64,000 nucleotides of DNA from contig JANBQC010000006.1 of NCBI GenBank assembly GCA_027576995.1, forward strand, positions 1 through 64,000, given 5' to 3'. Of this stretch, positions 37,655-59,100 are shown in pieces (within the stretch, counting starts at the first letter, position 1; each line of letters begins with the position of its first letter). The DNA is from Dimargaris cristalligena. Taxonomy: Eukaryota > Kickxellomycota > Dimargaritomycetes > Dimargaritales > Dimargaritaceae. The position numbers and the translations under genes were made by a program. The notes beneath the pieces were generated by a model. That model was not told where the DNA came from, did no database searches, and worked only from the letters and a program-made list of their open reading frames with translations.

Positions 37655-38425
37655 TTAGTGGGCGGGTGCGGTGGCAATGTTCTTGCTGGGCGCGACAGTC
37701 ATGTAGTTACCCGGAGTACACTGGGCCTTCCTGACCCCTTTGGCGGGTCCCCCGTTAAATTTGGTGAATAGGAACTGGTACTTTGGACTATAAATATAGA
37801 TGGTCAGGTTACCCGGCTCGGTGCCTTTCCCTTCGATTTTCAAACAGCCATTGTGGGTTTGGCCATTACCCAGTGCTAAGCCCACTATAGCAGCAACCAG
37901 TAGGGTGTCGCCAATCGCGTAGTCGTGACCAAACGCGCTTACAAAGGGGTTCAGAACCGCCCCACTCTCGCCCAGCGGACCCCGGGTGACGGCGAAGCAA
38001 CCGTGGGGGTACTGGGTGCTTGGGCCTTGCTCAATGGTCAGCCACGTCCCTGCAAGGGTGTAGCCCGCTCCCGTTGTGACGAGGTCCTTGGCGAAATCGG
38101 ACTTTACTCTTATTGCACTATTGGATGCATTGGAACACAGAGATATACCAACTGAGTCGGTGGCGGCATATGTACTTTCAAAGACACTGTACTGCACAAA
38201 TACTTTCTTGGTAGTGGCGGTGCTGGTGCCCGAGGGTGACGGAAGAGTGCCGGTACTAATGGTGGTGACGGTGGGTAGGGTTTTGTCCCCAGGAGTCGGG
38301 TGTGGAATGGGTTGGTCGTTCCCGTAGATGGAGGTGGTCTGGACCGGGTGGGTGAATCCAGGGGAAGCAGTAAACACTACCAGAGTCACGGCCAAGGTCA
38401 AGACCGAAAAAGACGAATAAAGCAT
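37655..38425 (-). CDS. Secreted protein with a double-psi beta-barrel (3D-like) C-terminal domain
   Basis: 256 residues, no intron. Residues 1-25 form a signal peptide (LAVTLVVFTASPGFTHP region). Residues 26-72 are a Thr/Ser/Pro-rich, probably O-glycosylated linker. The C-terminal 170 residues include GESGAVLNPFVSAFGHDYAI, then IGDTLLVAAIVGLALGNG and THNGCLKIEGKG. This G-x-L-x-PF-x-S...G-D-x-L...THNGC order resembles fungal secreted double-psi beta-barrel proteins related to expansin/RlpA and the 3D domain. The usual acidic residues after HNGC (xxDxG, IDxF) are replaced (EGKG, TIYIY), so any lytic activity is doubtful. A carbohydrate-binding or inhibitor role is possible. Identification is by pattern only. 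Confidence 0.6.
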   Translation of the reverse strand: MLYSSFSVLTLAVTLVVFTASPGFTHPVQTTSIYGNDQPIPHPTPGDKTLPTVTTISTGTLPSPSGTSTATTKKVFVQYSVFESTYAATDSVGISLCSNASNSAIRVKSDFAKDLVTTGAGYTLAGTWLTIEQGPSTQYPHGCFAVTRGPLGESGAVLNPFVSAFGHDYAIGDTLLVAAIVGLALGNGQTHNGCLKIEGKGTEPGNLTIYIYSPKYQFLFTKFNGGPAKGVRKAQCTPGNYMTVAPSKNIATAPAH

Positions 38426-39089: not shown

Positions 39090-39641
39090 ATAGCCCATTG
39101 AGGTTTGGATATGGGTGGGTAATTGGTATTGGAAGCGAATATCTTTTGTTCGTCGGATTTATCTACCTACTATGCATATCCTGGAATTTGATATCATCTG
39201 ATTTACATCGATTTCCCGTTAGTCACCATCTATACAATAACGAGGCTATCCCCAAGTTCAGCTTTGGCGGCTATCCGCATGATACTCGCCAACAATACCT
39301 ACAAACCATTGAAATAGTCTAATAACTCCGCAAGCCACCATTGGCTATATTGGCTTAATATAATCCCATAGGTGACAACGATGGCTCCAGTCAACAACGG
39401 TTCGAATATAAATACCATTCAAAAATATAAAAAATTGTAACACTTGCCTGATTTTAACCAGGGCTTCACAATAGCCAAATTTTGCCATATGGCCATATTT
39501 AAACACCAGTTACTACATCACTATTGCCGAAATTAAATAAAAAAAACACTTTATTAAAACCGGTGTCAGGCCTACTAGCAATTCACGGACAAAGTGAGCC
39601 GTCTACTGGTATACCAATCGGAACAAGGTATAGCATATAAT

Positions 39642-40087
39642 TCAGCTGAATAATTTGGGGCAGGGATTGACATATATATCTTCGGCTTTCGCGCAGATAG
39701 TTCCTACCACGGTACCTTCAAAAGTCACTAGCTCCTCGTCCTCGTCAATGTTTGCGATGCTACCTTTGTAAATCGTATCGGGAGAAGATTTAAAGACAAA
39801 ATAATACAGCTCTAATCAAAATAAGAACAGTAAATACATAAAAGCCGTGTTAATAAGTGGTAAGTAATCTAGGTGCCCCTAGAAGTTATTCAGGGTTGGG
39901 ATATGGGCGCTTATGAATAGCTATATAACTATCTTATCAATCCGAAGGCTAGATAAATGTAAGAGAGGCAAAAGGGGGATGTAAACCATGGGATGTGCGA
40001 ATCGACTATTTGGCGTTTACCGAACCTAGGTTACTCACCGTGCAATTCCAAAATCGCGTAACCGTCCTCGAATAGTTCAACTTTCAT
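39642..40087 (-). CDS. Array copy A: small two-exon protein, 72 residues, unknown family
   Basis: Exons 40087-40039 and 39811-39642, intron 227 bp (donor GTGAGT, acceptor TTAG, phase 1 after codon 16). The deduced protein starts MKVELFEDGYAILELHE and contains FVFKSSP, IYKGSIA, VTFEGT, VGT and AEDIYVNPC. It has no signal peptide or membrane segment. Alternating hydrophobic stretches separated by glycines and short polar turns suggest an all-beta SH3/Tudor-like small barrel; that is inference. It is 35/72 identical to copy D but only 17/69 to copy E. TATA box at 40219-40226, AATAAA on the sense strand at 39555-39550. Short length and lack of a known family are offset by conservation across six copies. 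Unlike other copies it lacks a long C-tract before the ATG. Confidence 0.75.
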
Positions 40088-40218
40088 GGCTAGGGTTGAT
40101 TGGCGGCGGGAGCTAAGGTCAGCGGAATATATCAAGTCCGGTACAGAAATTGCTAATGGCAAATAGCTAGTTGTTTGAGACGGAAATTGTTGAAGACAGT
40201 CGAATGGATAATGTGTAA

Positions 40219-40226
40219 TATTTATA
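40219..40226 (-). promoter_or_regulatory. TATA box of array copy A
   Basis: TATAAATA on the minus strand, 132-139 bp upstream of the ATG, in a conserved context (CTTTCAAA on its upstream side). Confidence 0.7.
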
Positions 40227-42434
40227 CATTTGAAAGGGGGGCTATAAAACCTAAATCATTACAGTATGGCAAGAAGATTCTGTGCGACCTGAAGGTTCCT
40301 GATCTCCTAATCCGCTGTTTCTTTTACTTTCATCAAGTCCCGAGTGATTAGTGTCGAAATTGAGATTTTTAAATAGAAATGCGGCATTGCATTGGCGGGT
40401 TCCGCTAGATATTACTGCCAAGGTTGATAAAATAAAATGATTGAATGTCACAGTAGTCATTAATTGAATGTTTAACAATAATCCATAAATTATCAGCTAC
40501 ACTTATCGTTTTCCCTCTATGCTAGGTGTTGGTATGTCACTTAGTTGATGGACAGCGGTCGTCCAATAGGCCCTGTTATTATATCATCTGGGGTGAACCA
40601 AACAACTTCTAATCCGATGAAGTTGATAGATTACACTGAATTAACTTGGACTCCAATATAGTGATTTCCATCGCCAAAACCGATGCCAATTTTTCCGATA
40701 AACCCATTTCCGTAAGACTGATCCGATATACTGGTTGCCCACATCACCATCTTGGTCTACTCCCCATCAGAAACACTTACACCATTCAGACGTTGGATGA
40801 TTAGGGTTATTGTTGCAGACTCGTCGGGCATTGGAGAACCCCATTCCTAGTTGCCATTTTTCTAAAAAAACACGTAACACACCGAGTACTATTTACCCAC
40901 AGCCAGACTTATTGTAATAATCACCCTTCGGATATTGACATCTGTTAAATGTGAGCACCATGATCACTTTAGTTTGTGAACCTCTGGTTCTTTCCTCATT
41001 ATTCCTATAGATTTTTATGTAAATTAGGGCATTATGACCAGCTGTCTTTTTAATCCGATTTTAACTATTTCACAAACAGATGGGGCATTGCAATAATAAA
41101 TATAATATCGCACAAGATCCGACCTGCATTATAGTAATAAGCAATTCATCCTCCATTACTTATTTATAAAATTGGAGTTTGCGGGGGGGGGGGAGTTTTG
41201 TAGCTATCACGAAGTACCTAATGGTCGGTAAATTTATATATTCTAGCAGGAGGAAAACTGTAAAATTTCCTACATATAAAACTATAGTATTTTTAGATAG
41301 TGTTATAATGTATATAAACAGCATTTAAATAATACTGACAAGGACGGTATTAGTATTATTCTGGAATTTACCCACTAGCTTGACTTGAACGCTAATTGAC
41401 GTATAAAATAACATCAGAAAAGTATGGTTTATTCTGATAATCAGTAATGATTTTCCATTGCCAACCACGACAAAATAAAATCCACATCAACTTCCAGCAA
41501 GGAGCTGATGCATATGTAAGATTATATCGCAATCGTTGGTTGAATCCTGATTATAATCATCTGAAAAGGTGCCATGGCTGCAAAAGACTCCGTCTTTCTT
41601 ACTATAGTTTAATTCCAAACCCGAAGAAATCATGTGCAGCAATTTTGTTACTACTCCGGCGAGGCTGAAAATAAAGCCCCACGGGTGGAGACGATAATGT
41701 GATAAAAACAATGAGTTATTAGAACCTCAAGGCAGTTATAGTAAACATGTGCCTATTCCAAGGACGACAATTTAAGATGTAAACGCAGGTGCAAGTAAAG
41801 ATGAGATGCGAGAGACTTATATTCAAGTTTTACTCTTTGTCGTACATAATAATCCAGATAATGTCTCAAGCACCTACGCCTAGAACGAGTTATGAGACAT
41901 AACACATGAGCAGCTGATGCGAAGGGCGTTTGATAGAATACAATACAGGAGATACTAAATAGGTTGAGTTCATTATTGAAAAGGGTATAGAACTATATGC
42001 TAATTAACTAATGAACGGCTGTAGGAATTAGCCCGGTTTTATATAGTCGAGAAGACTGATGATATAGATGTCGAACAAGCATGGAGGTTGCTGGAAGACG
42101 CTACTGAATATTAATATGAATGTTAGATAATTGTAGACATGTATAAATGATAGAATGTATAGAATAGATGAATCGAGTGGTGATGCATAGCTGAAGAAAG
42201 GTGAACCTTCAATAAGGCCAAATTCCCGCGGCTCGTTGATGGAACTGGGCAACGATGTTGCCTGGTTCTTCGTGTTTAGTCGGCTTTAATATTGTTGGTT
42301 ATTAGACACAACGTAAATTAAAAAAAAAAGTAATTTATTAAAGCCAGAATTGGGCTTACTAGCAATTCGTGGTCCAAGTGAGTCGCCTACTGGTATACCA
42401 ATCAGAATAAGGTATATTATAGATTTTATCTGGC

Positions 42435-42868
42435 TCAGTTGACGAAGGGTCTGATATATATATCTTTAGCCATCACGCGGAAGGTTCCCATTGAAGTTCC
42501 TTGGAAAGTCACCACACCTTCGTACTCGTCGAGTTTCGCGACACTACCTTGGTATATCTTATTGGGATAAGCTTTAAAGGCGAAATCAACCAACTCTAAT
42601 CAAAATAATAATAATCATTAAAAGATCCGCGTTAATAAGTAACGAGTAACTTAAGTGTTCCTAGAACCTATCCAGTGTCAGGATATAGGCGATGATGAAT
42701 GGCCATATTACTAACAAATCGATTGAAAGGTTAGTATAATATAAGAGAGGGAGACGTTGGATATCAAATATGGGAAGGGCGAATCGCCTAATGGGTTTAG
42801 GGATAGTCTGATTACTCACCGTACATTTCCAAAGTCACCAAATCCCTGTTAAATGTTTCGGCTATCAT
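42435..42868 (-). CDS. Array copy B: small two-exon protein, 69 residues
   Basis: Exons 42868-42820 and 42595-42435, intron 224 bp, same phase-1 position as the other copies. Protein begins MIAETFNRDLVTLEMYE and continues with FAFKAYP, IYQGSVAKLDEY, VVTFQGT, MGTF and AKDIYIRPF. It groups with copies A and D (33/69 identical to D), sharing the ELxxFxFK, GSVA, DEY and GT..GT pattern. TATA box at 43010-43017; AATAAA at 42339-42334 on the sense strand. A C10 tract (G on plus at 42894-42903) ends about 25 bp upstream of the ATG. In this copy it is followed by CTCCCCACAG, which would also serve as a 3' splice site of a leader intron. A MITE-like element sits 530 bp upstream. Confidence 0.75.
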
Positions 42869-42890
42869 GTCTAGGCTCGAGTAGCTGTGG

Positions 42891-42903
42891 GGAGGGGGGG
42901 GGG
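42891..42903. repeat. Pre-ATG G/C tract, copy B
   Basis: GGA followed by ten G on the plus strand (C on the coding strand), 23-35 bp from the start codon. Confidence 0.9.
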
Positions 42904-43009
42904 TCAAGGACGACGTAGGAATTCAAGTCGGGTGTAGAAATTACTAATGGCGAATAGTTAGTGGTTAGAGACGGTAATTATTGAAGACAGTCGAATGGAT
43001 AATGTGTAA

Positions 43010-43017
43010 TATTTATA
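43010..43017 (-). promoter_or_regulatory. TATA box of array copy B
   Basis: TATAAATA on the minus strand, about 145 bp upstream of the ATG, preceded by TCCCTTTCAAAA as in other copies. Confidence 0.7.
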
Positions 43018-43399
43018 ATTTTGAAAGGGAACCATATACCTCAGTTTATATCAGCAGGGCTGATCGAGTCAGTGCGAACTGAAAGTTTCCTGGTGTCCTA
43101 ACCCACTGACTTGCTTTTTTCTCCATCAATTTCCGAGTGATTAGTGTCGAAGTTGGGTTTTCCGAATAGAATAGCGGTATTAAATTGGGATTTTCCGCTG
43201 GATAAGATTACCTAAGGTGATAGATTACAATGATTGAATGATGCGTAGTAAGATGTGTAATTCTTGGCACTAGTACATCGATCATCTACCACCCTAACCG
43301 GTTCCCCGCTACGTTAGCTGTTTACATGACATGTGTAGTTGATGGGAAGCATTCGTCTAATAGGCGCCATTATTTAATCGCTTAGGGAGCATTAAACAT

Positions 43400-43540
43400 A
43401 TGGGAGAGGTTCAGCTGAGCTGTATAACGAAAAGTCCGTTAAATGAAGTAAAAATACTGGATAAAAATAAATCTCCCATATATTATCCCATACACTTATC
43501 ATTTAAACCCTTATACAGCTGGGCCGAATTTCACCCACAT
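43400..43540. mobile_element. MITE-like element in unit B
   Basis: About 141 bp present in units B and E only. Its ends (ATGGGAGAGGTTCAGC... and ...GGCCGAATTTCACCCACAT) form an imperfect inverted repeat of about 28 bp, meeting at TATACAGCT on the inner side. Comparison with units A and C shows the empty site: 'accaaac..tctaatcc' continues directly there, whereas here the element interrupts it, with a possible ACAT duplication. No coding capacity, so it would be non-autonomous. Confidence 0.65.
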
Positions 43541-43739
43541 TCTAATCCCACGAAATTGATAAATTGTGCCAAGCTAACTTAGTTCCCAATATAGTGGCAC
43601 CTATCTTTTATACTGATGCTAATTTTTCCAATAAAGCCATATCCGTAAGACCAATCCAATATATTTATTGCCCACACCATCATCTTGATCCATATATTAT
43701 CAATAACTGTCATGCTTCATAATTAACAGGGGTAAAGCT

Positions 43740-44720
43740 GACTATTCATGAAGGACTAGGCACCATAATCACCTAGTTTTACCAACAAGATGTGGGAATT
43801 CCGCCTTATTGAAGGGTCACATACCATTAGCCATCCACCACCACTTGATTTGTCTTTTTTACATATCATATTCTTTTTACTCATCTATTATGAGTTATCA
43901 TTCATTATATCTCTGAGTAGTATCTTCTAGCTATCAGCACTCCTAATCTGACTTAATCCAGACCTAATGATTGCCCATCCTTATTAGGCCTTGTAGTACC
44001 CTTTTAACCTTCCCATAGTCACCCCTAGTACTATGGGTCATCATTTATTATATACCCCTACTCATTCCAACCCCAATACTTTGCACCCCAAACACTCAAC
44101 TTGTGGATCCAAGACTTTTCCTATTCTTATGAGAGTCTTCCCAATGTGAAGCTATCTGGTCAGACTCTTTATCTACCTATACCTTAGTCTTAGTAGTATT
44201 TCCCTTGGGACCTCCCTCTGGAGCCATCCCTGCATATATATAACCAGGCCCCACTGGGACTAATTTAATTCCTAAGCTTATTCTTCCCCCCTTAGTTTAT
44301 CCCAATAAACTCTATATATATTTAACCCCCTTGTATTTGACTAATAAGTGTGCTTACTGCATGTCCCTTGCTTATACCTGCATTCATAGCTTTTATTAGT
44401 TAGTACCATGCCCCAACCTAATACTAAGACCTGCTTAGCCATATCTAGGCTCCATCTACCATTAGAAGCCTACCTCTGGGATTCTTGACAGACTAAGAGC
44501 AGTTAACCCAGGTGACAAGCCATAAGCTTTATTGAATAAAGATATAATCATTAGTAGAAATAGTAATGAATAAAGAAGAAAGCCACAAAATGAAAACAAC
44601 AACTCCGGTTGAGTTGTTTTTTTTCTTAGTAGAGGACACACCCATAAGAATGAAGGGGACGTGGCTATAATAGGGTGAATAAAATACTGCTTACAAGAGC
44701 TAAAAGAGAATCATGATAGA
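43740..44720. other. Unit-specific 1-kb segment between copies B and C
   Basis: No counterpart seen in the other units. Strongly pyrimidine-rich on the plus strand from 43870 to 44500, ending in A-rich sequence. Could be a retroelement LTR or remnant, but I found no coding frame, clear terminal repeat or tRNA-primer site. Confidence 0.35.
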
Positions 44721-45037
44721 TCATGCAATTTCTAACAAAGACACCTTCAGCTATATTGACCAAATATAACACCATAGGTGATAATGGTTTGAATATAAAT
44801 ACTATTCATAATTACAGAAATCGTAACACTTGCCTGATCTTAACAAGGGTTTTACAAGAGCTACATTTTGCCATATGGCCATTTTTAAACACCAACTACT
44901 GCATTGCTATTGCCAAAATTAAATGAAACAAAATATACACTGTATTGAAGCCGGAGTCAGATTTACTAGCAATTCACGGGTGAATTGTGCTGCCTACTGG
45001 TATGCCAACCGGGATATGGCATATTACATGTCTAGGC

Positions 45038-45479
45038 CTAATTAAAATGTAAGTAGGGTGTAACGTAGATAGTATCGAAAGTCAAGAGGATTTCTCCATC
45101 TTCGACATCGTCGATAAGAAATGTATATTGGCTCTCCCTAATTTCCTTGACAATGCCTTCGCTTGTAATTCTGGGACACGATTTAAAGGCCCAAACAACC
45201 CTTGCTAAAAGAAAAAAAGAACAATATTGTGAAGTCCGTATTAATTAGGGGCAGTTTCTTTAAGTTATCCTGCAAACTATACAGCAACAGGATATAGGCA
45301 CTGGTGAATATATATATATAACTTTCTGATCAATTTGAAGATTAGGGAACTGTAAGAGAGGCAGCAGGGAAATTTGAATTATAAAATATGCGAATCGACT
45401 ATCTGGAGTTTACCTGATCTAGTTACTTACTGTTCAATATCAAAGTCGTGTAATCTCCTTCGAATGTTTGAATGATCAT
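45038..45479 (-). CDS. Array copy C: small two-exon protein, 71 residues, most divergent
   Basis: Exons 45479-45431 and 45204-45038, intron 226 bp (GTAAGT, TTAG). Protein starts MIIQTFEGDYTTLILNT, then VVWAFKSCP, SEGIVKEI, a TFLIDDVEDGE segment and IYVTPY near the end. It keeps the family frame, intron phase and the WxFKxxP and IYVxP anchors, but has lost the YKG and GT..GT residues of copies A, B and D. The frame is fully open, so it is not an obvious pseudogene. The poly(A) motif is degenerate (AATACA on the sense strand at 44946-44941). TATA box at 45615-45622; C9 tract (G on plus at 45500-45508) about 20 bp before the ATG. Confidence 0.68.
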
Positions 45480-45499
45480 AGCTAGGGTAGATTAGCGGT

Positions 45500-45508
45500 G
45501 GGGGGGGG
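45500..45508. repeat. Pre-ATG G9 tract, copy C
   Basis: Nine G on the plus strand, 21 bp from the start codon of copy C. Confidence 0.9.
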
Positions 45509-45614
45509 TTAAGGTCGGCGGAATAAATCAAGTGTGGCGCAGAAGTTGCTAACGGTCAATAGCTAGTGATTGGATATAGTAATTGTCGAAACCAGATGAA
45601 TGGATCAAAATGTA

Positions 45615-45622
45615 TATTTATA
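45615..45622 (-). promoter_or_regulatory. TATA box of array copy C
   Basis: TATAAATA on the minus strand, about 140 bp upstream of the ATG, with the conserved TTCCCTTTCAAAAG upstream. Confidence 0.7.
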
Positions 45623-46394
45623 CTTTTGAAAGGGAACCATAAAAACTATACGACTACAGTAGGGATAAATGATTATGTGCGACATGAAAGTTCCTGATCT
45701 ACTAATCCAGCGTCTCTCTTACTTTCATCAATTCCCGAGTGATTAGTGTCGAAGTTGGGTCTTATAAATGTAATAGTGGTATTAAACCAGGGTTATCCGG
45801 CGGATAAGTCCGCCTAAGGAAATAAAATACCGTAGTTGAACGTCACACAGTCAGACACATCATTTTTGAGACTAGCGCGTCAATCACCTACCAACCTAAT
45901 CGGCTCCCCACTATGTTAACTGCTTACATGTCATGTGTAGTTGATGGGCAACAGTAGACTAAGAGGCCCTGCCATTTAATCAGCTTGATTTAATCACCCG
46001 GGGTGCACCAAACATTTTCTAATCCAATGAAGCTGATAAATTATACTTAACTGACTTATGCCCCAATATAGTGACCCCTATTTACTATACTAACACCAAC
46101 ATTTTCAATAAACCCATTTCTGTAAGGCCAACCCAATGTATTGGCTGCTCATCCTACCGTCTCGAGCCTTTGCTTATCGGTAACCCTCACAACATTTCAC
46201 AACTGATTGATCAGGGCTCAAAATGTGGACTTTCTAGGCACCAGAGGACGTACCTCCTAGTTGCCACTTTTATATATAATAGATAACATACTGAGACCAA
46301 TAAACCCGTGAACCCATTTATTACAGCCACGGCCAGAAAAAGTGTGATAATAGCTTGGCTTACTGGGGGGATGAATATTGTGTTGGAATAATAA

Positions 46395-46610
46395 ATTGAA
46401 TGGTAAATGCAAGTGCCTTCAGATACAACTAAAATGATTTAAAGAAGAGAGAAAGAACCGCAAAGGACAGATCTAGATGCCCGTGGTTGACTTTATTGAG
46501 TTGGATAATAGGAGTAATAGTGACAAAAACGAAGTCCCGAGTACAGGACAAACCAATTAGAGAGATGGAGTCAGTGGGACGGGGGAAATGAATTTCCAAC
46601 ATAATTTTCA
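46395..46610 (-). repeat. Inverted duplicate, left arm
   Basis: On the minus strand this matches 48605-48850 read on the plus strand (for example ATTCATTTCCCC, CCATCTCTCTxATTGG, CTCGGGACT and TGCGGTTCTTT in the same order). It interrupts the direct-repeat organisation between units C and D. Confidence 0.8.
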
Positions 46611-46965
46611 ACAACGACTCCCGCAAACCCTTAAATATCTCAATATCATCTCAGACCACTGCCAGTTACACCAGCCAAATATAATCCCACAAAATACAAT
46701 GATAGCTGTTGTGGACAATTTTTTTAATAAAAATACCCTTAATAAACACAATTGAAACACCTGCCTGATCTTAACGAGGGTTTTACAATAGCCACATTTC
46801 GTCATATAACTATATTCAACCACTAACTATTACACCACTTTTGTCGAAATTATATATATACACAAATAAATTCTTTATTAAAGCCGGAGTCAGGCTTTCT
46901 AGAAATTCACTGATCAAGCGGGTCGCGTACTGGCATACCAATCGGAATAAGGTACATTGCATATT

Positions 46966-47409
46966 TTATCTTAATAAATTGCGGGAGGTTTTTACATATA
47001 TATCTGTGGCCTTCGCGTGGTAGGTTCCTAGAGCGGTACCTTCGATGGTCACAACATCTGAGTACTCGTCAATTTTCGCGACACTGCCTTTGTGTATCAT
47101 TTTGGGAAAAGATTTAAAGGCGAAATAGATCACTTCTAAATAAAAATAAGAGCAATAATTAAACATTCCGCGTGAATAAGTGGCGAGTAATTTATGTGTC
47201 CCTAGAATTAATTCAGCGTCAGATTATAGACACTAATGAATGGCCAGAGTACTATCTAAACAATCGAAAGGTTGAGAGAGTATAATAGATGAATGGGTTG
47301 AATGTGGAATATGGGATGTGCGAGTCGGATAATGGGTTTAGAGTATATCAAATTACTCACCGTGCATTACCAAAGCCACAAAATCCCCTTTGAATGTTTG
47401 CACTAGCAT
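46966..47409 (-). CDS. Array copy D: small two-exon protein, 72 residues
   Basis: Exons 47409-47361 and 47135-46966, intron 225 bp (GTGAGT, TTAG). Protein begins MLVQTFKGDFVALVMHE, then IYFAFKSFP, IHKGSVAKIDEY, VVTIEGT, LGTY and AKATDIYVK. Best matched by copies A (35/72) and B (33/69). Its intron resembles copy B's more than those of A, C, E and F, so coding similarity and intron similarity agree here. TATA box at 47543-47550, AATAAA at 46879-46874 (sense strand), C9 tract (G on plus at 47429-47437). Unknown function; no targeting signal. Confidence 0.75.
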
Positions 47410-47428
47410 GTCGAGGTTGAGTAGCGGT

Positions 47429-47437
47429 GGGGGGGGG
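47429..47437. repeat. Pre-ATG G9 tract, copy D
   Basis: Nine G on the plus strand, 20 bp from the start codon of copy D. Confidence 0.9.
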
Positions 47438-47542
47438 TGACAAGGTCGGCGGATTAATACAAGTCGGGTGTAGAAATTACTAATGGCGAATAGCCAACTA
47501 TTAGAGACGGCAATTATTGAAAGTCGAAAAGATAATGTGGAA

Positions 47543-47550
47543 TATTTATA
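47543..47550 (-). promoter_or_regulatory. TATA box of array copy D
   Basis: TATAAATA on the minus strand, about 138 bp upstream of the ATG, with TTCCCTTCCAAAAG upstream. Confidence 0.7.
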
Positions 47551-48604
47551 CTTTTGGAAGGGAACCGTATGCCTGAAATTAGATCAGAAGGGCAAATTGA
47601 TTCAGTGTGGACAGTTGATTCCCTGGTCTACTAATCCATTGCCTCTATTTTTCTCGTCAATTCCTGAGTGATTTATGTCGAAAATGGGTCTTATGAATGG
47701 AATAGTAGTATTATACAAGGGTTATCCGCTGGATAAGACCGCCTAAGTCGATAAAATACAATGATTGGATTCCACAGCAGCCGATTGTTTGACGTTTGGC
47801 ACTAGCACATCGATCACCTACCACCCTAATCATTTCCCCGCTACGTTAGTCGTTTACATGCCACGTGTAGTTGATAGGCAAAATGTGGTCCAGAAGATCC
47901 TGTTATTTAATCACTCAGGGTGCACCAAACATCCTCTAATCCCATGAAATTGATAAATTATGCTAAACTAACTAGATACACTGAATACTGTTTCCTATTT
48001 ATTATACCGACACCAACTTTTCCAATATAGCTATTTCCGTAAGTCTGATCCGATAAATTGGTTGCCCACACCACCGCCTCGAGCTATTCCCTATCAGTAA
48101 CACTCACAACATTTAGCCATTGAATAACTAGGGTTCAACTTGCGGATTTGCCATGCACTAGAGAACCCAACTCCATGCTGACTCCTTTCCAAATAATAAG
48201 TAACAGACCGATGGCTATTTACCAGCGAATACATCTACTATCATATGATCCAACTACCCGGATAATCACGACCAATATTTCCCGTGACCTGATATCAATA
48301 GGGGAGTTCATGACCCACCAAAATATAATTATCAGATAAAAACCTAAGTAGCACCTTGGGGATTGAAAAGAGGTAGAAAATAGGCATGGGAGTTCGATAC
48401 ATTTTGTTCTTGGGAGTAATTTACCTGCTATGCAGATCCTGAAATTTGGTATCATCTGATTTATATCGAATACCCGCTAGTCTCTATTTACATCAACTGA
48501 GGTTACATCCAAGATTGGTTTGGTGAACATTCATCTGAAACCCAACAACAATACTCACAAGTACCTGAATATTCCAAAAACGCCTTAAATCATCACTAGC
48601 TATA

Positions 48605-48850
48605 TCTGTTGGAAATTCATTTCCCCCCGACCACCGATCCCATCTCTCTGATTGGCTCGTCCTCAACTCGGGACTATATTCTAGCTATTACTATATTATT
48701 CTATACTTGGGACTTCGTCCTAATCTTGATTACTACTGTTATCCATCTCAATAAAACTAACTGCAGGCATCTAGCTCTGCTCCTTGCGGTTCTTTTTCTC
48801 TTCTTTAAATTATTTCAGTTGTATTCGAAGGCACTTGCGTTTACCATTGA
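48605..48850 (+). repeat. Inverted duplicate, right arm
   Basis: Counterpart of 46395-46610 in opposite orientation, with about a 25-bp extra insertion in the middle. Both arms have an open frame with a hydrophobic translation, but different stop positions and no start conservation, so no gene is called. Confidence 0.8.
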
Positions 48851-49171
48851 ATTTATCATTCTAACAATATCATCCAAATATAAGCCCACAGGTACCAATG
48901 ATGGCCAATGTTTGCAATTGGTCGGGTCTTACTACCATCCACTGATACAGAAGCCGTAATACTTGACTGATCATAACCAATGTTTTACAATAGCCAAACT
49001 TTTGTATAGTCATTTTTAAACACCAGCTATCGCATCACTATTGCCGAAATTGAACGAAAAAAACATGTACTTTATTGAAGTCGTAGTCAAAAAAATTCCC
49101 AATTGACGGGTCAAGCCAATCGCCTCACAGAATGCTGACCGGAATAGGGCATTGTATATGTTTCAGCCGAA

Positions 49172-49604
49172 TCAAAGTGAACAGGGTCTGAAATAGATAG
49201 CATCATAATACATGCTGACCTCTCCGAGAACGAAATCGTCGATAACCAATTTGCTTTGTTCCTCCATAAAGACCGTGACCGTGCCTTCGTATACTCTGTT
49301 AGGTGTCGTTTTAAAGGCCCAGTAAATCCTCGCTAAACAAAATAAGAATAGTTTTGGGAAATCCGTGTTAATTAGCGATGGGTTATTTAAGTGTTTTTGA
49401 AAATTATTCAGCAACGGGGTACAGGCGCCGATGAATAGCTATATAACTATCTGATCTGCCCGAAGGCTAGGCCAATGTAAGAGAGGCAATAAGGAGATAT
49501 GGAATATGGGATGTGCGAATCGACTATTTGGCGTTTATTGGATCTAGTTACTTACAGTTCAATTCCACATCCTTCCAAACTCCGTCGAATGTTTGAATGA
49601 ACAT
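49172..49604 (-). CDS. Array copy E: small two-exon protein, 69 residues
   Basis: Exons 49604-49556 and 49332-49172, intron 223 bp (GTAAGT, TTAG). Protein begins MFIQTFDGVWKDVELNS, then RIYWAFKTTP, VYEGTVTVF, KLVIDD, LGEVSM and AIYFRPCSL. It shares the C-terminal PCSL with copy F (26/69 identical) yet keeps an intron and upstream flank closely matching copy A. TATA box at 49754-49761; AATAAA at 49076-49071 on the sense strand. The pre-ATG C tract is the longest plain one: G8, then A, GGG, A, then G10 on the plus strand (49625-49647). A MITE-like element lies 610 bp upstream. Confidence 0.75.
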
Positions 49605-49624
49605 GGTTAAGGTTGATTGGCGGC

Positions 49625-49647
49625 GGGGGGGGAGGGAGGGGGGGGGG
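49625..49647. repeat. Pre-ATG G-rich tract, copy E
   Basis: G8-A-G3-A-G10 on the plus strand, 21 bp from the start codon of copy E; looks like an expanded tract broken by two substitutions. Confidence 0.9.
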
Positions 49648-49753
49648 TTAAGGTCGTAGGAATAAACCAAGGCTGGTTCTGAGGTTGCTAATAGTGAATA
49701 GCTAGTTGTTTGAGACGGTAATTGTCAAAAACAGATGAGTGGATGGAAGGGCA

Positions 49754-49761
49754 TATTTATA
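49754..49761 (-). promoter_or_regulatory. TATA box of array copy E
   Basis: TATAAATA on the minus strand, about 154 bp upstream of the ATG. The extra distance relative to copy A is roughly that added by the longer C tract. Confidence 0.7.
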
Positions 49762-50218
49762 CTTTTGATAGGGAACCATAAAACCTAAATAATTACAGTA
49801 GGGATAAAAGGTTATGTGCGACCTGAAAGTTCCTGATCTACTAATCCTCTGCCTCCCTTACGTTCATTGATTCCCGAGTGATTAGTGTCGAAATTGAGAT
49901 TTTCAAATAGAACAGCGGTATTTAATTGTGATTTCCCGCTAATTAGGACTGCCTAAGGTGATAAAATATAGTGATTGAACATCACGCAGTCAGACGCATA
50001 ATTTTCTAAACTAGCGCGTCAATCACTTACCACTCCAATCGGTTCCCCGCTACGTTAGCTGTTTACATGCCATGTGTAGTTGATGGACAACATTTGCCCA
50101 GTAGACACTGCCATTTAACCCGCTCGATTGAATCGTCTGGGGTGAAACAAATACCCCGTAATCCCACAAAGTTGATAAATTACACTAAACTCAGGCACCA
50201 ATATAGTGTTTCCTATAT

Positions 50219-50358
50219 ATGGGAGAGGTTCAACCAGATTATATAACATAAAATCCGTTGGATGAGGCAACTACTATTGGCCAACAACGAATCACCCTCC
50301 CATTTCCCCATTTGCGTATCGTTTAAAAGCTTATACGGCTGGTCCGAATCCCATCCAT
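50219..50358. mobile_element. MITE-like element in unit E
   Basis: About 140 bp, related to the element at 43400-43540 and in the same orientation, with the same imperfect terminal inverted repeats. It sits at a different position relative to the unit: between 'atatagtg..tcc' and 'taccgatgccaa', which are adjacent in unit A. A TAT/ATAT duplication is possible. Insertion at two different sites supports mobility rather than shared ancestry. Confidence 0.65.
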
Positions 50359-51449
50359 ATTATACCGATGCCAACTTTTCCTAACAACCTATTACCGTAA
50401 GGCTGCCCGAATGTATTGGTTACCCACACCACCGCCTCGAGCTTTTCTTTATCAGTATCCCTCAGAACATGCAAACGTTGGACGATCAGGGTTCAAGTTG
50501 CGATCTCGCCAGGCACCAGGGAAATCCACTCCTAGTTACCGACTTTCCATATAACAAGTAACATACTGACAACCATTTACCCCCAAACGGATTTATTATA
50601 AGAGTCATTCCCGACTTCTATTATCTGTTAAATTTGAGTACCTTGGTCACTTTTGTTTGCGAACACTTGGTATTTAACTCACCCTGCCTACGGAGTTCTA
50701 GGCCAATTGGGCCATTATGACCAGTGGACAATTTAATCCGCCTATAATCATTCCACAAAAAGTTGGAACATAACAGGAATAAATTTAACATTACAAAAAA
50801 ACTAATCTACATGATAGTAAACACCAATAGTTTCTCCATTACCCATTTATAGAATTGAAGTTGGGGGGCCTAAGTTAGTAGCGACTACAAAGCACCTGAT
50901 TGTCAGTAAATAGGCTGGCTGGCAGGAGGAAAAGGCCATCATTTTGTAACCGCAGTACTATCGTGTTTTCTGATAATATTGTAGTGTTTCTAAATTATCT
51001 TGATAAAATATATACAATAATCCACCTGATTATCGTTGTGACATTCATCCACTAGTTAGAAATGTATACGAATTGATATATGGAACACCATTGGTAAAAT
51101 ATAGTGAATTCTGATGATCAGCAATGACTCGGCATTGTTATCAACAACACTGGAAAATGTACCATTTCTTTAACCATGGGGCTGATCAATATGCTTATTG
51201 GATGTGAAGTCATCGTGTAATTGTTGGTTTAATTCCATTTAAAATTGACATAATGTGCGAATTGGCAGCAAAATTCATATTTTTTTCTGACCACGGCTTG
51301 ATTCTAAAACTAAAATAAGTGTAAGTAATAAAGTAATAAGTATTCCGACAGGGCTGATAATAAAGTCACATTGATTTGGACACGCATAGAATATCAGAAA
51401 GAGGTCTTCGAAACCCAAATTGGTTGTAGTAAACATGGTCCTATTATAA

Positions 51450-52674
51450 CATATAAGGCGAGTAGGTCCTAATAAGTAACCGAGCTTCCAAATAGGACAG
51501 AAATGGAAGTAATGAAATACCAGGTTGGGTGGATAGATTTCTAAAAGAATTATTTACACATTATTAAACTGAAGGCTAATTAGCCAGGTTTGAGGTATAT
51601 ATAGTGATTTGGGAACTCACAGCGTTACCTACTAGGTAGCAGCCCCAGTTACGAATTTCATATTGGGATTCTTAAATAGCCCTTTAGGTTGTCATGTCTG
51701 ACTTTGGTCAGGTCTGATCATAAAGTCTCTCCCTGTCTTCGTTAGTGACATTCAGATACTGACACCCCTGACTGACCTTTTTACCTAATCATTAGTATCC
51801 TTCAGTATTCCTGCCCAGGTGCTTCCTACAAATGGACTCTATATATAATGATTAGTCAAGTTATGATACATTTGTTACTCAGCTTACTTTTTCCCCTTGT
51901 TTATCTAATGAATCCCCTATATACTCACCTACTTATTCTAGTGAGTAAGCTCTCAGCACCATTCCTATGTTATCCAGTCCTGAATACCTATTTCCACACC
52001 TATCAAGTGCTGATATCACTGGCCAAGTGCCCCCCTGGTCATGGTTCTCATTCAACACCCATCTATGGGACCATTGATAAGCCAAGTGTGGGGTTAACCG
52101 GGACAACAACGAGATCTATTGGGGGCGAATCCATTTTGACCATCGGATTTACCAAGCGGCTATATGGATTCCGTAATTTTGCACCATCATATTTGTATTA
52201 ATTTGTGGTATTGTCCAGTATGTCGTGATTGATTGTTAGTAGTTGAAACTATACCCTGCTTATAGCCCATTCACTAGCTCTATTTTTAGCTTGCTTTTAT
52301 CCTTTCAACGTCTATTGTGATAGCATTTATTACGTGATTCATATGATTAAAAATATTGCAATTCGTTTATCGCTAATATATTACCAATGAAATTACTCAC
52401 CATAGCCTTACTTTCAATACCTTTATACCCGTCCTGTGTTTATATGGACATAGTAATAATAATCGAATAGGAATATAAAAAGACGTTGGGGCCCTGCAAA
52501 AGAAAACCAAGAGTCGGTTATCAATTGAAGTTCAAACTTCTCGAAACTATTATTCATTTTAATCAAACCTTTAATATTTTTCCGAGTATTTCTAAATACT
52601 TGGGCAATTGTATTTCCTTGTTCCCTACTATCATAACTGGTGCCCATCTTGAGTTCCAGCGCCCCTGAAATTAC
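51450..52674. other. Non-repeated spacer between units E and F
   Basis: AT-rich segment accounting for most of the extra distance between copies E and F. A plus-strand open frame (51848-52201) is hydrophobic at its N-terminus but has no recognised motif, and no homologous copy elsewhere in the array. No gene called. Confidence 0.4.
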
Positions 52675-52676
52675 TC

Positions 52677-52894
52677 AAGCTGTGTCCTTGAGCATCTCCA
52701 GGCCTGTCAAGTTCGGGCCCTTCATTGTGACATCGAAGCAGTCCGGGAAGGATGTCAGGGCCGTTTTGTAGCTTCTCATGCCAGGCACACTGAAGGTGTG
52801 GTTACCATGCACTGCAAATTCACTGTTGGTCACCATATATTCAATAATGAGGCTATCTGCGCGCCCAGTTTTGGTGTTCATACACACGATAACT
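52677..52894 (-). pseudogene. Orphan 3' exon or gene fragment of unknown family
   Basis: Minus-strand frame with clearly higher GC than its surroundings and protein-like composition: TGRADSLIIEYMVTNSEF, then HTFSVPGMRSYKTALTSFP and FDVTMKGPNLTGLEML, ending at a TGA at 52677. Just upstream on the same strand are splice-acceptor-like TTGCAG and TTCTAG motifs, so it looks like a last exon. No 5' exon is visible before the downstream flank of copy F begins at about 52970. Interpreted as a gene fragment left by array rearrangement, or a small gene with an unfound first exon. I do not recognise the family. Confidence 0.4.
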
Positions 52895-53264
52895 GACAAC
52901 AATAACTGCAAATCCTTCCTAGAATAGTCAAACAAGACCCTAACCCACTACTGGATATATTAGCTAAATACAATCCCACAGGAGATAATGATAGTCTTTT
53001 TGGACAGTTGTTCAATTATAAATACCATCAATAAACATAGATCCTATAACACTTGACCAGTATTAACCAAGGCATTATAGTAGCCAAATATCTCCATACA
53101 GCCATTATTAAACACTAAATAATACAGCACTATTGCCAAAATTGAATGAGAAAGATATGCACTTCGTTGAGGCCGGAATCGGTCTAACTCCCAGTTGGCA
53201 GGCCAAGCCAATAGCCTAATGGTAAGCCAAATCGGAATAGGGCATAGTATATGTTTCAGCTGAA

Positions 53265-53699
53265 TTAAAGTGAACATGGTTTGATAAGGATATCCGCGGA
53301 CTTCACGGTGACATTTCCAATAGGGGTATTTTGGATAATCACCAAGTTTTGGTCCTCGAGAATGTCCGTGACGGTGCCTTTGTACAGCACATAGGTTGAG
53401 AATCTAAAAGTCCAATAAATATTTGCTAAACAAAATAAGAACAAAATTTATAAGTACACGTTGGTTAGTGATGGGTTATTTAAATGTTCCTGAAAAACAA
53501 TTCTCCAACGGGGTATAGGTGCTGATGTATAGTCATGTAACAATCTAATCAACTGGAAGGCCAGGTAAATGCAAGACAGTCGAAATGGGGGATGTGAAAA
53601 ATGGGATATGCGAATCAGCTGTTCGACGCTTATCAGATAAGGCTACTTACCGTGAACTTCCAAAGTCTCCCAATCCCCATCTAATGTTTGGACTAGCAT
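53265..53699 (-). CDS. Array copy F: small two-exon protein, 69 residues
   Basis: Exons 53699-53651 and 53425-53265, intron 225 bp (GTAAGT, TTAG). Protein begins MLVQTLDGDWETLEVHA, then NIYWTFRFS, LYKGTVTDI, LVIIQN, IGNVTVKSADI and IKPCSL. The conserved Pro after FK is replaced and the Lys is Arg, so it is diverged but open. The poly(A) motif has decayed (AACGAA on the sense strand at 53168-53163). TATA box at 53852-53859. In place of a homopolymer C tract it has a 45-bp degenerate GGGTC/GGGGTT-type repeat (53716-53760). It is the copy nearest tRNA-Gln and farthest spaced from its neighbour. Confidence 0.72.
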
Positions 53700-53715
53700 G
53701 ACTAGGGCTGAGTAG

Positions 53716-53760
53716 CGGTAGGGTCAGGGTCAGGATTGGGGTTGGGGTCGGGGTCGGTGG
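53716..53760. repeat. Pre-ATG degenerate G-rich repeat, copy F
   Basis: Repeats of the type GGGTCA, GGGGTT and GGGGTC on the plus strand at the position where other copies have plain G runs. Superficially telomere-like, but its orthologous position argues for local expansion. Confidence 0.85.
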
Positions 53761-53851
53761 AATAATTCAAGTATAACGTAGAAATTGCTATTGACGAAAC
53801 AAGTATTTATAAACAATAGTTATTGAAAACAATCGAGTGGATGTAGGTGCA

Positions 53852-53859
53852 TATTTATA
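53852..53859 (-). promoter_or_regulatory. TATA box of array copy F
   Basis: TATAAATA on the minus strand, about 157 bp upstream of the ATG, again offset by the expanded G-rich repeat. Confidence 0.7.
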
Positions 53860-55003
53860 CCTTTAAACGGGAACCGTGAATTTTATGTTTGAAGCAGGGC
53901 AAATTGAATACGTGTGAACAGGTGATTCCCTGGTCTACTAATCTATTACCTATCTTTTTCTCATCAATTCTCGGGTAACTAGTACTGAAATTGGGCTTAT
54001 CGAATAGAATGGGGTCATAAAACTGGGGTGTGCCGTTGGATAATATTGCCCAAGGGTATACAATTCAATGATTAAATACCGCGGTAGTCAGTAAACTGAT
54101 GTCTGACACAAACACATAAATTATCGGCTATCCAAATGGCTTCCCCACTACGTTGGTTGTTTACATGACATGTGTAGTTGATGGGAAAAAGTAGTCCAAT
54201 AGACCTCGGCACTTAATCAGCCTGATTTAATCACCCTGGGTGCAACAAACACCCAGTAACCCCTCAAGGTTGATAAATTACAGTAATCTAACATGGGCCC
54301 CAGGGTTTTGTTTCCTATCTACTATACCTATGCTAACCTTTTCATATAATAGGTAACATATTGAGACCTATTTGACCTCGAACACGTTTATTGCAATAGC
54401 CGCTTCCCCGACTTCCATCATCTGTTTAATCTGGGTTTCTCGGCCACTTTTGCATGTGAGCACCCAAGATTTTCCCCGCCTTGCCTCCGCGGCTTTAGGC
54501 GTATTGGGATATTTTTACCAATAGCCTAGTGAACCTGCCATAAACAATTCTTCAATTAGATAGGGTATAGCAGAAATAAATATTACCTCCCGCAAAAACC
54601 AACCTACAATTTTGTAAACATCATTTCCTAAACGCAAACCTATAATGTTTTCAAATAACATTGTGGTGTCCCAAAATAACTTTAATATAATATAGGCAGA
54701 TACCACCTGAGTAGGGTTTTGTTGTTCACCCACTAGTTTGACTTGAATACAAATTGATATATGAAATAAGATTGGCAAAATATGGCTAATTCTAATAATC
54801 AGCAATGATTCAATAATACAAACAGCGACAATAAAAAAAACTACTAAATTCGACCGTAGAGCTGGTAAATTTACCCATTAGGTGCGAATTCATAATGCAA
54901 TAGGCGGTTTAAACCTAATTAACATCACCTTAAAGGATGGAACGGTTACCAAAGATTTCTAAATACGGAATAGGACCTGAATCCAAATTTGACATATCAC
55001 AGC

Positions 55004-55076
55004 GGTTCCATAGTGTAGTTGGTTATCACATGGGGTTTTGATCCCCGCAACCCGAGTTCGAATCTCGGTGGGACCT
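55004..55076 (+). tRNA. tRNA-Gln: tRNA-Gln (UUG anticodon)
   Basis: Full cloverleaf without intron. Acceptor GGTTCCA pairs with TGGGACC (one T-G wobble). D-arm with TAGTGTAGTTGGTTATCA (A box). Anticodon stem GGGG/CCCC encloses loop TTTTGAT, anticodon TTG. T-arm CCGAGTTCGAATCTCGG carries the B box. The discriminator is T and an oligo-T terminator follows at about 55080-55085. It reads CAA codons and lies just outside the right edge of the small-gene array. Confidence 0.95.
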
Positions 55077-56199: not shown

Positions 56200-59100
56200 T
56201 TAATTACCAGTTGCGTGGGTTGTCACAGGGGGTCCAGCCGGATGGGCATTTGAGGCCGCGATGGAAAACAAATCATTCAATTGAGACACACTCTGTTGCG
56301 GTGAGCCCAGGGGTAGATATGGGATGGATGAGGTAGCTGTGTCAAATTTGACAGTCGAATTCGGTGACCAAAATGACATACCACCAAGACGGGTATGTCC
56401 ATCCATGAAAGGGCTGGTTAGATGGTTGCGGGGATTCCCGGGGTAAAAGAGGGAAGGGGCAATCAGAACTGACCCAGGTGCGGGGAGCGGACTTAGTGCT
56501 CCAAATGCAAACACATCGGAGTTGCTGGTCTGTCGACGGACTGCCGGAACAGGTGTGAAATCCGCAAGGGCTGCAGTCGGAACCTGGTTTGATCCAATTG
56601 GCGTAGCGGATAGCGCGGCTGACAGCTGGGCGAGAGATCCAGGTGTGGCACAGACGCCCAGGCCAGATAGACCCAAGGAAGATGCGTGTGGTTCGGGAAG
56701 TCGTTGAACGGGATATTTAGCTACTAATTCGGCTAAAATGGAAGGTTGGGAACCGGGTACCGGAGCGAGGGAAGGCTGACTAGCTGCAGCATTCGTGGTC
56801 ATAAAACCCTGAGGAGCATGTTCAAGCATTTGGGCTGAGTACAACGGCCTGGATAAAGCCGCACCATTGGCGGGAGGTGCGAAATTGGGCCCATTGGGTC
56901 GATTGAATTGGTGATTTAACGGGTGGTCGGCCAGTGAAGGTTGGACAGTAGGTAGTGTAGTGGCCATTACAGTGGGGTTAGGGGCCATTGGTACACCGGG
57001 CTGGACCGACGGGCCCTGAGAAAGCGTACCCAATAGTATATCTAGGGCGGTCCCCCCCAGGGATACAGGCGATTGCTGATTAAGGGGTGCGCTAGGCGGA
57101 GCTGCTTGGGGCTGAAGTGGATACGGCCCAGCGTAGGGACCGGAAGGACTAGCTGGGAAACCAGCCAGCCCTGGCAAAGCCGGATCGAAAGCCACCGATG
57201 ATGCTGGGGATACCCGAGTCGCTAAAGGCCAAATCGGACTCGGCTGATTACCCATCGTAAAGACTCCAGTACCGGGCTTCATCGATAGGTCAGCGCCTAT
57301 TCCTCCCAGGCCAGGAGGTGGCACGCATTTCGGCTTGAGACCCATCGATACATCCGCAGCAGCCGATAAGGGGGGCGGTGGGGGCCGGAAGCCAGACAAT
57401 CCCACTTGCCCAGCGAAGAAGCGCATAATATTGGTACTAGGGTCCCCGGCAGACCCTGTCCCAAAGGGAGCGAGCGGAAGACGGGACACCCGGCGTTCGA
57501 TAGGTGGCCTTGTCACAGCGGCGGGTTGCTTGGGGGAGCGGGCGGGGGTAATACTCGCGGAGGGCTCAGTGGGTGGACCTTCCCGAGGGGGTGAGTCAGT
57601 TAGAAATGAACCAGAAGTGCATGAGATACGGGAATGGTCGTGGTACCATTCCGGCAGCAATTGGGAATCCCGGTACGACAAGGACCGAGAGACGGATGGC
57701 GGGGTATAGTTATTAGTGATGCCCAGGGCCATATCTAAAAAGGCGGTATCAAGCGGTTCCTGGTTGGACGGCCCAACGTAGTGAGAGCGAGACCGGGTGA
57801 TTATGGGGTGACTGGCATTGATTGGGTTTAAGTTAGCTTCCGCTGGAAAGGGCAGATGCTGGGGCAGGTTCGGAACCGACAAGGCGGGACCCGAGGACGG
57901 CAGGTCTTTCATATACTCGGTTATACCATCTCTCAAGATACTCTCGGCTTCTGCGTCCTCGTTGAAATCACCGTTGGCAAAGGTCGCGGATAACTTTTCG
58001 TTGGAGAGGTTAGTGAACGGATTGTTGTCGCCCTGCGCCAAGTCTTGCGCCCATAAAGAACGATTGGTATCGACCAAAGTGGGGCGACGGCTAAAGCGAG
58101 GGAAGGTGTTCTGCATGTAAGGGGACTGGGCCGAATCATTAGTAGGAGTCCACAAGCCAGATGGGTCGGCAAATGGTGAGAGCAGAGAGGTGGCAGCGAT
58201 AGTTGAGTCTCGCGCGACTGCCGTGAGAGTCAAGGTTTTAATTGGCTGGGTTGTCGGAGGCGCGGGGTCCGAGACTGTCCAACCCCGGGCAAAGGCGCTT
58301 GGCTGGGGATTCGAGGGCAACCCTGGGGGCGGAGCGGTTACATTCAGGCCCCCGCCGAGAGCTAAAAAAGGTTGGGCCAGGCCGGACGTTGAGGGCACCG
58401 ATCGCTCCGCGGGGAGGAGGGGGGATACGGTTGCCATGGGACCACGGGGGCCCGCCGGCTCAGCGGGCGGCATCATAACAGGTGGCTTGGGGGATATGGA
58501 CCTCGTCTGGAGACCAGGGGGCGGGGCCAGTAATCCCCCCGAAAAGTTAGCCTGAGGAAGTTCAGGAGAGAGGCAGGGGGCCCGAGGAGAGCGATCGACG
58601 GGCGGCTCCCAGGGCAGTGGCGACTGGGCGACTTCTTTCCGGCGGGGAAGGGGCCGAGGGGTAGACTCGGAGCTCAGGAATTCCAACGGATCCTGGTCAG
58701 CGCTCCAGGGGTGGCAGATCACGGTAAGCGGTGCGGGACAGTGTCGCGAGTTGGTAAGGGCGATACCAAAGGTAAGTAAGGACCACACCCGCTTCCAGGA
58801 GGCAAGGCATTCAGTTTCTAGTCCGCCCACCTGGGCAATGGTCTCCGCAGTGGGGTACGGGGGCTGCCGAGGTACCTCGATATCAAAGGACCGGAGAATA
58901 CACCCTACCAAGGACGGCAAGGGTACATTAAGCGGAGTAGTACGAGGCTCCTTCAGGGGCGGTCCTGCGGCGGCTTGCTCCCCCGGCTCGAACCCCCACG
59001 AACTACTATAGGGGTTTCGGCCGGGAAGCAGGAGCCCGGCGTATTCCTGGTCCTCCCAAAGGTTAATGGAACCCAGTTCGGCGTGAAGGGCCACCAATAG

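Follow-up and report, generated by a model that had tools for sequence, protein, structure and literature searches.

The DNA analysed here, called the window, is the first 64,000 nucleotides (nt) of contig JANBQC010000006.1 of the fungus Dimargaris cristalligena (assembly GCA_027576995.1). Between positions 39642 and 53699 it carries an array of six small genes, g1 to g6, all on the minus strand and all composed of two exons. A first-pass annotation made from the sequence alone had proposed these genes. They were recovered, with the same outer limits, by an independent script that searched for a 49-nt exon 1 ending at GT, an AG acceptor and an open exon 2; the chance models it gave elsewhere have no sequence similarity to the six genes. 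Exon 1 spans 49 nt, the phase-1 intron 223–227 nt, starting with GTGAGT or GTAAGT and ending with TTAG, and exon 2 161–170 nt, yielding deduced proteins of 69–72 amino acids (aa), in agreement with the sizes first proposed. The first 66 codons of the six genes align without gaps, again as proposed. The genes are the following.

39642..40087, minus strand: g1, subfamily A, 72 aa (exon 1 40087-40039, exon 2 39811-39642)
42435..42868, minus strand: g2, subfamily A, 69 aa (exon 1 42868-42820, exon 2 42595-42435)
45038..45479, minus strand: g3, subfamily B, divergent, 71 aa (exon 1 45479-45431, exon 2 45204-45038); exon 2 predicted to form an Sm/LSm-like barrel
46966..47409, minus strand: g4, subfamily A, 72 aa (exon 1 47409-47361, exon 2 47135-46966); exon 2 predicted to form an Sm/LSm-like barrel
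49172..49604, minus strand: g5, subfamily B, 69 aa (exon 1 49604-49556, exon 2 49332-49172)
53265..53699, minus strand: g6, subfamily B, 69 aa (exon 1 53699-53651, exon 2 53425-53265)

Searching the genome (27.1 Mb, 779 contigs) at the DNA and protein level identified two further intact genes of equal structure, g7 on contig C217 and g8 on C80, both close to contig ends, and two relics. The family is thus larger than the six copies of the window and counts at least 10 loci, a lower bound because the genome search scores best candidates only. The relic on C541 has lost its start codon (by eye) and carries in its intron a 565-bp insert resembling a solo long terminal repeat (LTR), with a TCTAT duplication, while its exon 2 is still open over about 54 codons; only the 3' end is left of the relic on C773. 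The evolutionary counts given below refer to the eight intact copies, which form subfamily A (g1, g2, g4, g7) and subfamily B (g3, g5, g6, g8). The ATG, the splice sites and the frame are retained in all eight. The residue anchors first described as FK at 23–24, G at 33 and IY or IL near 62 hold for F23, G33 and I62, invariant in all eight copies; position 24 is either K or R.

A TATAAATA box (TATA box) lies 139–160 nt 5' of the ATG in all eight intact copies and an AATAAA polyadenylation-type signal is found 87–96 nt past the stop codon in six of them, g3 and g6 having degenerate versions at the homologous position.

40219..40226, minus strand: TATAAATA box of g1, 139 nt 5' of the ATG
43010..43017, minus strand: TATAAATA box of g2
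45615..45622, minus strand: TATAAATA box of g3
47543..47550, minus strand: TATAAATA box of g4
49754..49761, minus strand: TATAAATA box of g5
53852..53859, minus strand: TATAAATA box of g6, first of two
39550..39555, minus strand: AATAAA signal of g1
42334..42339, minus strand: AATAAA of g2
44941..44946, minus strand: AATACA, degenerate, of g3
46874..46879, minus strand: AATAAA of g4
49071..49076, minus strand: AATAAA of g5
53163..53168, minus strand: AACGAA, degenerate, of g6

These upstream and downstream signals speak for genes that are complete with two exons, not for fragments of a larger one. The first-pass annotation had allowed that the segments might belong to a longer gene or to a transposon; what speaks for the latter is the position of g2, g4 and g7 between inverted dispersed repeats (see below). 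The leader contains a C-rich tract of variable length 20–60 nt 5' of the ATG in seven of the eight copies (by eye; window 40088-53760), which in g6 resembles degenerate telomere-type repeats, also by eye. The family proteins show no hydrophobic amino terminus by eye, no signal-peptide predictor having been run, and this is the sole ground for the intracellular location first suggested.

Exon 2 is predicted to fold as a five-stranded Sm/LSm-like barrel with a predicted local distance difference test score of 90 in both g4 and g3, in keeping with the small beta-barrel first suggested; the short lead coded by exon 1 would precede it, probably adding further strands (by eye). Among the aligned chains of the Protein Data Bank (PDB), the LSm domain of LSM14 (PDB 6f9w) ranks second and first for the two barrels, which superpose on it at 1.3 and 1.1 Å over 48 residues. 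The named chains in the second structural comparison of each barrel are mostly Hfq, LSm and Sm proteins. A Foldseek search with the g4 barrel places the LSm domain of EDC3 (PDB 2vc8) at rank 2 (template modelling (TM) score 0.65, E 0.26, 14% identity). In a library of viral structures the matches listed, none better than E 0.064, are uncharacterised proteins, most of them from phages.

Sequence comparison suggests a tie to LSM14/Scd6. The profile of the eight members scores z 5.4 against the fungus's own Scd6 (0 of 300 shuffles) and z 3.8 without its two best members; single members range from 6.0 (g8) and 4.0 (g7) down to -0.5 (g5), and the region Y-x-G-x-h-x-x-h-(D/N) of both g8 and the profile stands in register with Scd6/LSM14. 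With human and fly LSM14 the profile scores only z 2.5 and 2.0, and hhalign gives the match to LSM14 a probability of 5.7%. As a control of the Scd6 comparison, 15 canonical Sm/LSm loci (44 segments, 60 shuffles each) reached at most z 1.68, a control weaker than this number implies because its segments were the locus centre in three frames and contained real Sm frames, by eye, only at L052, L056, L063 and in parts of L065 and L066. The canonical Sm/LSm model PF01423 has 15 matches in the genome, none of them at the eight family loci, and is absent when the eight proteins are scanned against Pfam, which sets the family apart from canonical Sm/LSm proteins and Hfq. A genome search with the LSM14 model PF12701 lists a single locus, the true Scd6 on C105.

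The most serious competing explanation, although a doubtful one, is that the proteins are functional small barrels of SH3, Tudor or KOW type that resemble LSm domains by fold only, their ligand being of another kind, for instance a methylated peptide, a polymerase or DNA. The PHF1 Tudor domain (TM 0.58-0.64), the SMN Tudor domain, Spt5 and integrase chains are found within the first 50 Foldseek matches, the PHF1 and SMN Tudor domains sharing the small barrel at TM about 0.56-0.64, and Tudor chains recur in the second structural comparisons. Weak sequence signals also point that way: the Tudor model PF18336 hits g6 (13.5 bits against a cut-off of 25.9, E 0.074), and one of the two weak matches of g8 in the PDB sequence search (E 0.46 and 1.5) is NusG, at E 1.5. 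The Tudor match is, however, confined to that one member, the named chains are mostly Hfq, LSm and Sm with LSM14 at rank 2 or 1 (1.1-1.3 Å, though tied within 1 Z), and the sequence link points to Scd6, the shuffle test having been run on Scd6/LSM14 rather than on Tudor or KOW sequences.

The absence of recognised relatives noted at first is borne out by the searches made here. Two profiles, of six and eight sequences, gave no relative at E 1 or 10 among 5.8 billion proteins in a search that requires shared 5-residue words (21 and 37 candidates had common short words), and neither profile nor g1 had a match in the PDB sequence search. NCBIfam returned four families, each hit by one member only (best E 0.017), and PHROGs three families, the best being phrog_28922 with g5 (E 0.0012 over 22 residues). 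The titles and abstract openings of the papers listed for Dimargaris and for Dimargaritales (15 of 17 in each case) mention no such family. We read this as a known fold class represented by a lineage-specific, unannotated family.

Selection keeps the family translatable. Exon 2 has its real frame open in all eight intact copies, against 1, 0, 0, 0 and 2 copies for the other five frames; 150-nt noncoding windows tested are open in at most two copies each (the far-upstream windows comprise seven copies). Neutral substitutions were simulated along the family tree from nine starting sequences, 50,000 times each and without counting indels, the start codon or splice sites; the share of runs that preserved all eight frames ranged from 0 to 0.046%. 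The frame retention that had been taken as a sign of functional small proteins is therefore upheld by simulation and open-frame counts. The accompanying argument, that the frames persist in otherwise decaying AT-rich DNA, does not hold in that form: introns and flanks are 67–69% identical between copies and exon 2 is lower, at 61%, which indicates diversifying change and not plain conservation.

Coding exons that outpace their own introns point to evolution driven by conflict, with venom and immune genes as the best-known cases. Over the 28 pairs of copies the mean identity is 60.7% in exon 2, 65.1% in exon 1 without the ATG, 67.1% in the intron, 68.8% upstream and 67.9% downstream. Exon 2 is the less identical segment in 21 of 28 pairs against the intron, 24 against upstream DNA and 23 against downstream DNA. 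Rate tests of exon 2 give p 0.035 against the intron, 0.0016 against upstream and 0.13 against downstream DNA, and its transition bias is lower (kappa 0.9-2.2, versus 3.2-4.3 outside). With one copy left out, p is 0.010 (g1), 0.033 (g3) and 0.065 (g5). The faster change is confined to subfamily B and to comparisons between subfamilies. The ratio of nonsynonymous to synonymous rates (dN/dS) on subfamily B branches is 1.42 (p 0.094) for 65 codons and 1.67 (p 0.031) for exon 2. Tip and internal branches have dN/dS of 0.91 and 2.94 for the 65 codons (test of internal = 1, p 0.016) and of 0.87 and 4.25 for exon 2 alone (p 0.009), all these p values being nominal because the split into tips and internal branches was chosen post hoc, prompted by a free-ratio fit. 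The observed 65-codon statistic was reached in 1 of 199 parametric bootstrap replicates, and over three topologies and without g1 the internal-branch test gives p 0.007-0.034, with tips at 0.79-1.01. Fixing kappa at the noncoding value of 3.4 gave internal omega of 3.6 and 5.5 (p 0.005 and 0.003), estimates not used because the fit is about 10–12 log units worse. At a nominal p of about 0.01, the internal branches have dN/dS above 1, that is, diversification after duplication and not decay.

It is unlikely that the copies are relaxed or dying duplicates whose reading frames have lost their importance and survive by chance or because the copies are young. An overall dN/dS near 1 and tips at 0.79-1.01 would be expected of such duplicates, and two of the loci have already decayed to relics, exon 2 being still open in one. 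Chance survival of the eight frames is, however, at most 0.046%, noncoding windows are open in no more than two copies, the Nei-Gojobori (NG86) dN/dS is 0.52-0.63 for the three pairs among g1, g2 and g4, and a similar fold is predicted for copies 26% identical.

We propose, with a probability of about 0.6, that the family consists of lineage-specific stand-alone mini-proteins with an Sm/LSm-like barrel, which would be protein-binding modules of LSm type spread by segmental duplication. Several results weigh against this proposal. In both structural comparisons LSM14 is tied with other Sm and Hfq chains within 1 Z. The Pfam LSM14 model matches two of the eight members below threshold, the best at 16.1 bits (g8) against a gathering cut-off of 30 bits. 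Most LSM14-invariant residues are lost (G is kept in 8 of 8 members, Y in 6, S in 4 and the others in 0–2, as checked at 11 columns out of the 29 that are invariant in an alignment of four LSM14 sequences). The FDF motif and the RGG-rich tail of Scd6/LSM14 are missing, the proteins stopping after the barrel at 69–72 aa. Within subfamily A exon 2 and intron evolve equally, with no excess; the one-ratio dN/dS of 1.13 is indistinguishable from 1; and site models that allow a positively selected class do not reach significance for the eight copies. Since the Pfam cut-off, the invariant residues and the missing tail speak against membership in LSM14, our reading is that the family may work like an LSM14 domain rather than be one. 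It differs from Scd6/LSM14 in existing as eight divergent stand-alone copies without an extra domain or tail and, by eye, in apparently lacking the long strand 3-4 segment of LSM14; it differs from EDC3, whose LSm domain its predicted barrel matches, in having neither YjeF_N nor FDF region.

The array lies in an AT-rich stretch (GC content 0.38-0.40 over 40–56 kb; 0.43-0.60 in the preceding 20 kb and the following 8 kb). Each gene is contained in a duplicated unit that measures about 2.2 kb at most, the units being about 65–75% identical in DNA, so that the genes are not islands amid unrelated DNA. The limits of the units derive from BLAST pieces.

39218..41480, minus strand: duplicated unit around g1
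about 42315-43707: homologous unit
about 44783-46323: homologous unit
about 46673-48223: homologous unit
about 48867-51130: homologous unit
about 52825-54838: homologous unit

No second gene with a common frame was seen in the upstream part of the units (about 40600-41480 and homologues), inspected by eye only. The g1 gene with its upstream DNA (40550-39642) is a mosaic whose upstream DNA groups with g3 and g5 and whose coding sequence groups with g2, g4 and g7, a history that suggests gene conversion in the array. Two dispersed repeats flank some of the genes.

41835..42312, unstranded: dispersed repeat of about 480 bp, left copy flanking g2 (about 40 places in the genome)
43707..43931, unstranded: its inverted right partner at g2
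46369..46601, unstranded: second dispersed repeat of about 260 bp (about 40 places), left arm flanking g4
48607..48875, unstranded: its inverted right partner at g4

The g2 and g7 loci (window 41835-43931; L013 6280-7837) are 78.7% identical over 1247 bp, including the 480-bp repeat on one side, and each has the inverted partner of this repeat on the other side. Such bracketing of g2 and g7, and of g4 by the other repeat, is what Pack-type elements moving a passenger gene between terminal inverted repeats would leave. This origin is nevertheless very improbable, as there are eight intact genes against about 40 places per repeat, the loci of g1, g3, g5, g6 and g8 showed no such arms, none of 19 other loci of the 480-bp repeat has an inverted partner within 1.5 kb (on C452 one pair is separated by 3.4 kb), and no target-site duplication was established for an arm-gene-arm unit. 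Least probable of all is a noncoding RNA locus or intron-hosted RNA with an incidental reading frame, for which the higher conservation of the intron than of exon 2 could speak, but intron and flanks are equal in rate (relative speeds 1.00, 0.96 and 0.92), Rfam thresholds give only a tRNA in 36000-56500, and the frame is conserved.

Other elements are present at these loci. A mini-element of about 148 bp is found in two units (43398-43544 and 50217-50364) and on C217 (L013 4467-4611), at differing insertion points between units and with 69–71% identity between copies. The solo-LTR-like repeat family (565 bp, TG...CA ends) has copies in the window (43940-44517), on C217 (L013 7837-8067) and on C541 (L049); the C217 piece is 95% and the window copy 66% identical to that of C541. 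A tRNA-Gln (TTG) gene (55004-55076, plus strand) lies where the AT-rich stretch ends on the right and adjoins an EST1-like gene (56200-61122, minus strand). The adjacent open reading frame of 256 aa (37655-38425, minus strand) has no Pfam match and an amino terminus that looks like a secretion signal by eye. A CRH2-type glycosidase is also encoded in the window; its counterpart in Tieghemiomyces parasiticus is 63% identical over 76% of the query and that in Dimargaris verticillata 49% over 79%, affinities that fit a member of the Dimargaritales.

The LSm domains of Edc3 and Scd6/LSM14 are described as binding Dcp2 motifs, Dcp1 or 4E-T, that of Edc3 being a divergent, protein-binding domain that neither forms rings nor binds RNA (PMC8984151). 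By analogy, each copy of the family would be a protein-binding module that spread through segmental duplication in a member of the Dimargaritales, described as haustorial mycoparasites with hosts mostly among Mucoromycota (PMC10386755). As the LSm domains of Edc3 and Scd6 bind decapping factors, a free module of this type could activate decapping or compete for it: without the disordered tail of Scd6 it might compete with, or bypass, Scd6 and Edc3 on their partners in decapping and translational repression, as an adaptor or decoy. The duplicates would have diverged toward different or changing partners, and a faster exon 2 would fit a changing partner.

New in this system are an exon 2 less conserved than its intron and flanks, together with dN/dS above 1 on internal branches, and a predicted Sm/LSm-like barrel. 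Genes of this kind, coding some 70 residues and spliced, can escape annotation. Tiny proteins without obvious secretion signal and with a fold of mRNA decay, in an early-diverging mycoparasite, make the family a concrete and testable example of what may be an arms race inside fungal cells. In the widest reading, which we regard as a long shot, they would be a new class of free mini-LSm proteins that originated in mycoparasitic fungi and diversify through conflict. Such proteins would work on mRNA decapping and translational repression either as decoys or as bypass activators, directed against mycoviruses or mobile elements or deployed within the parasitised fungus.

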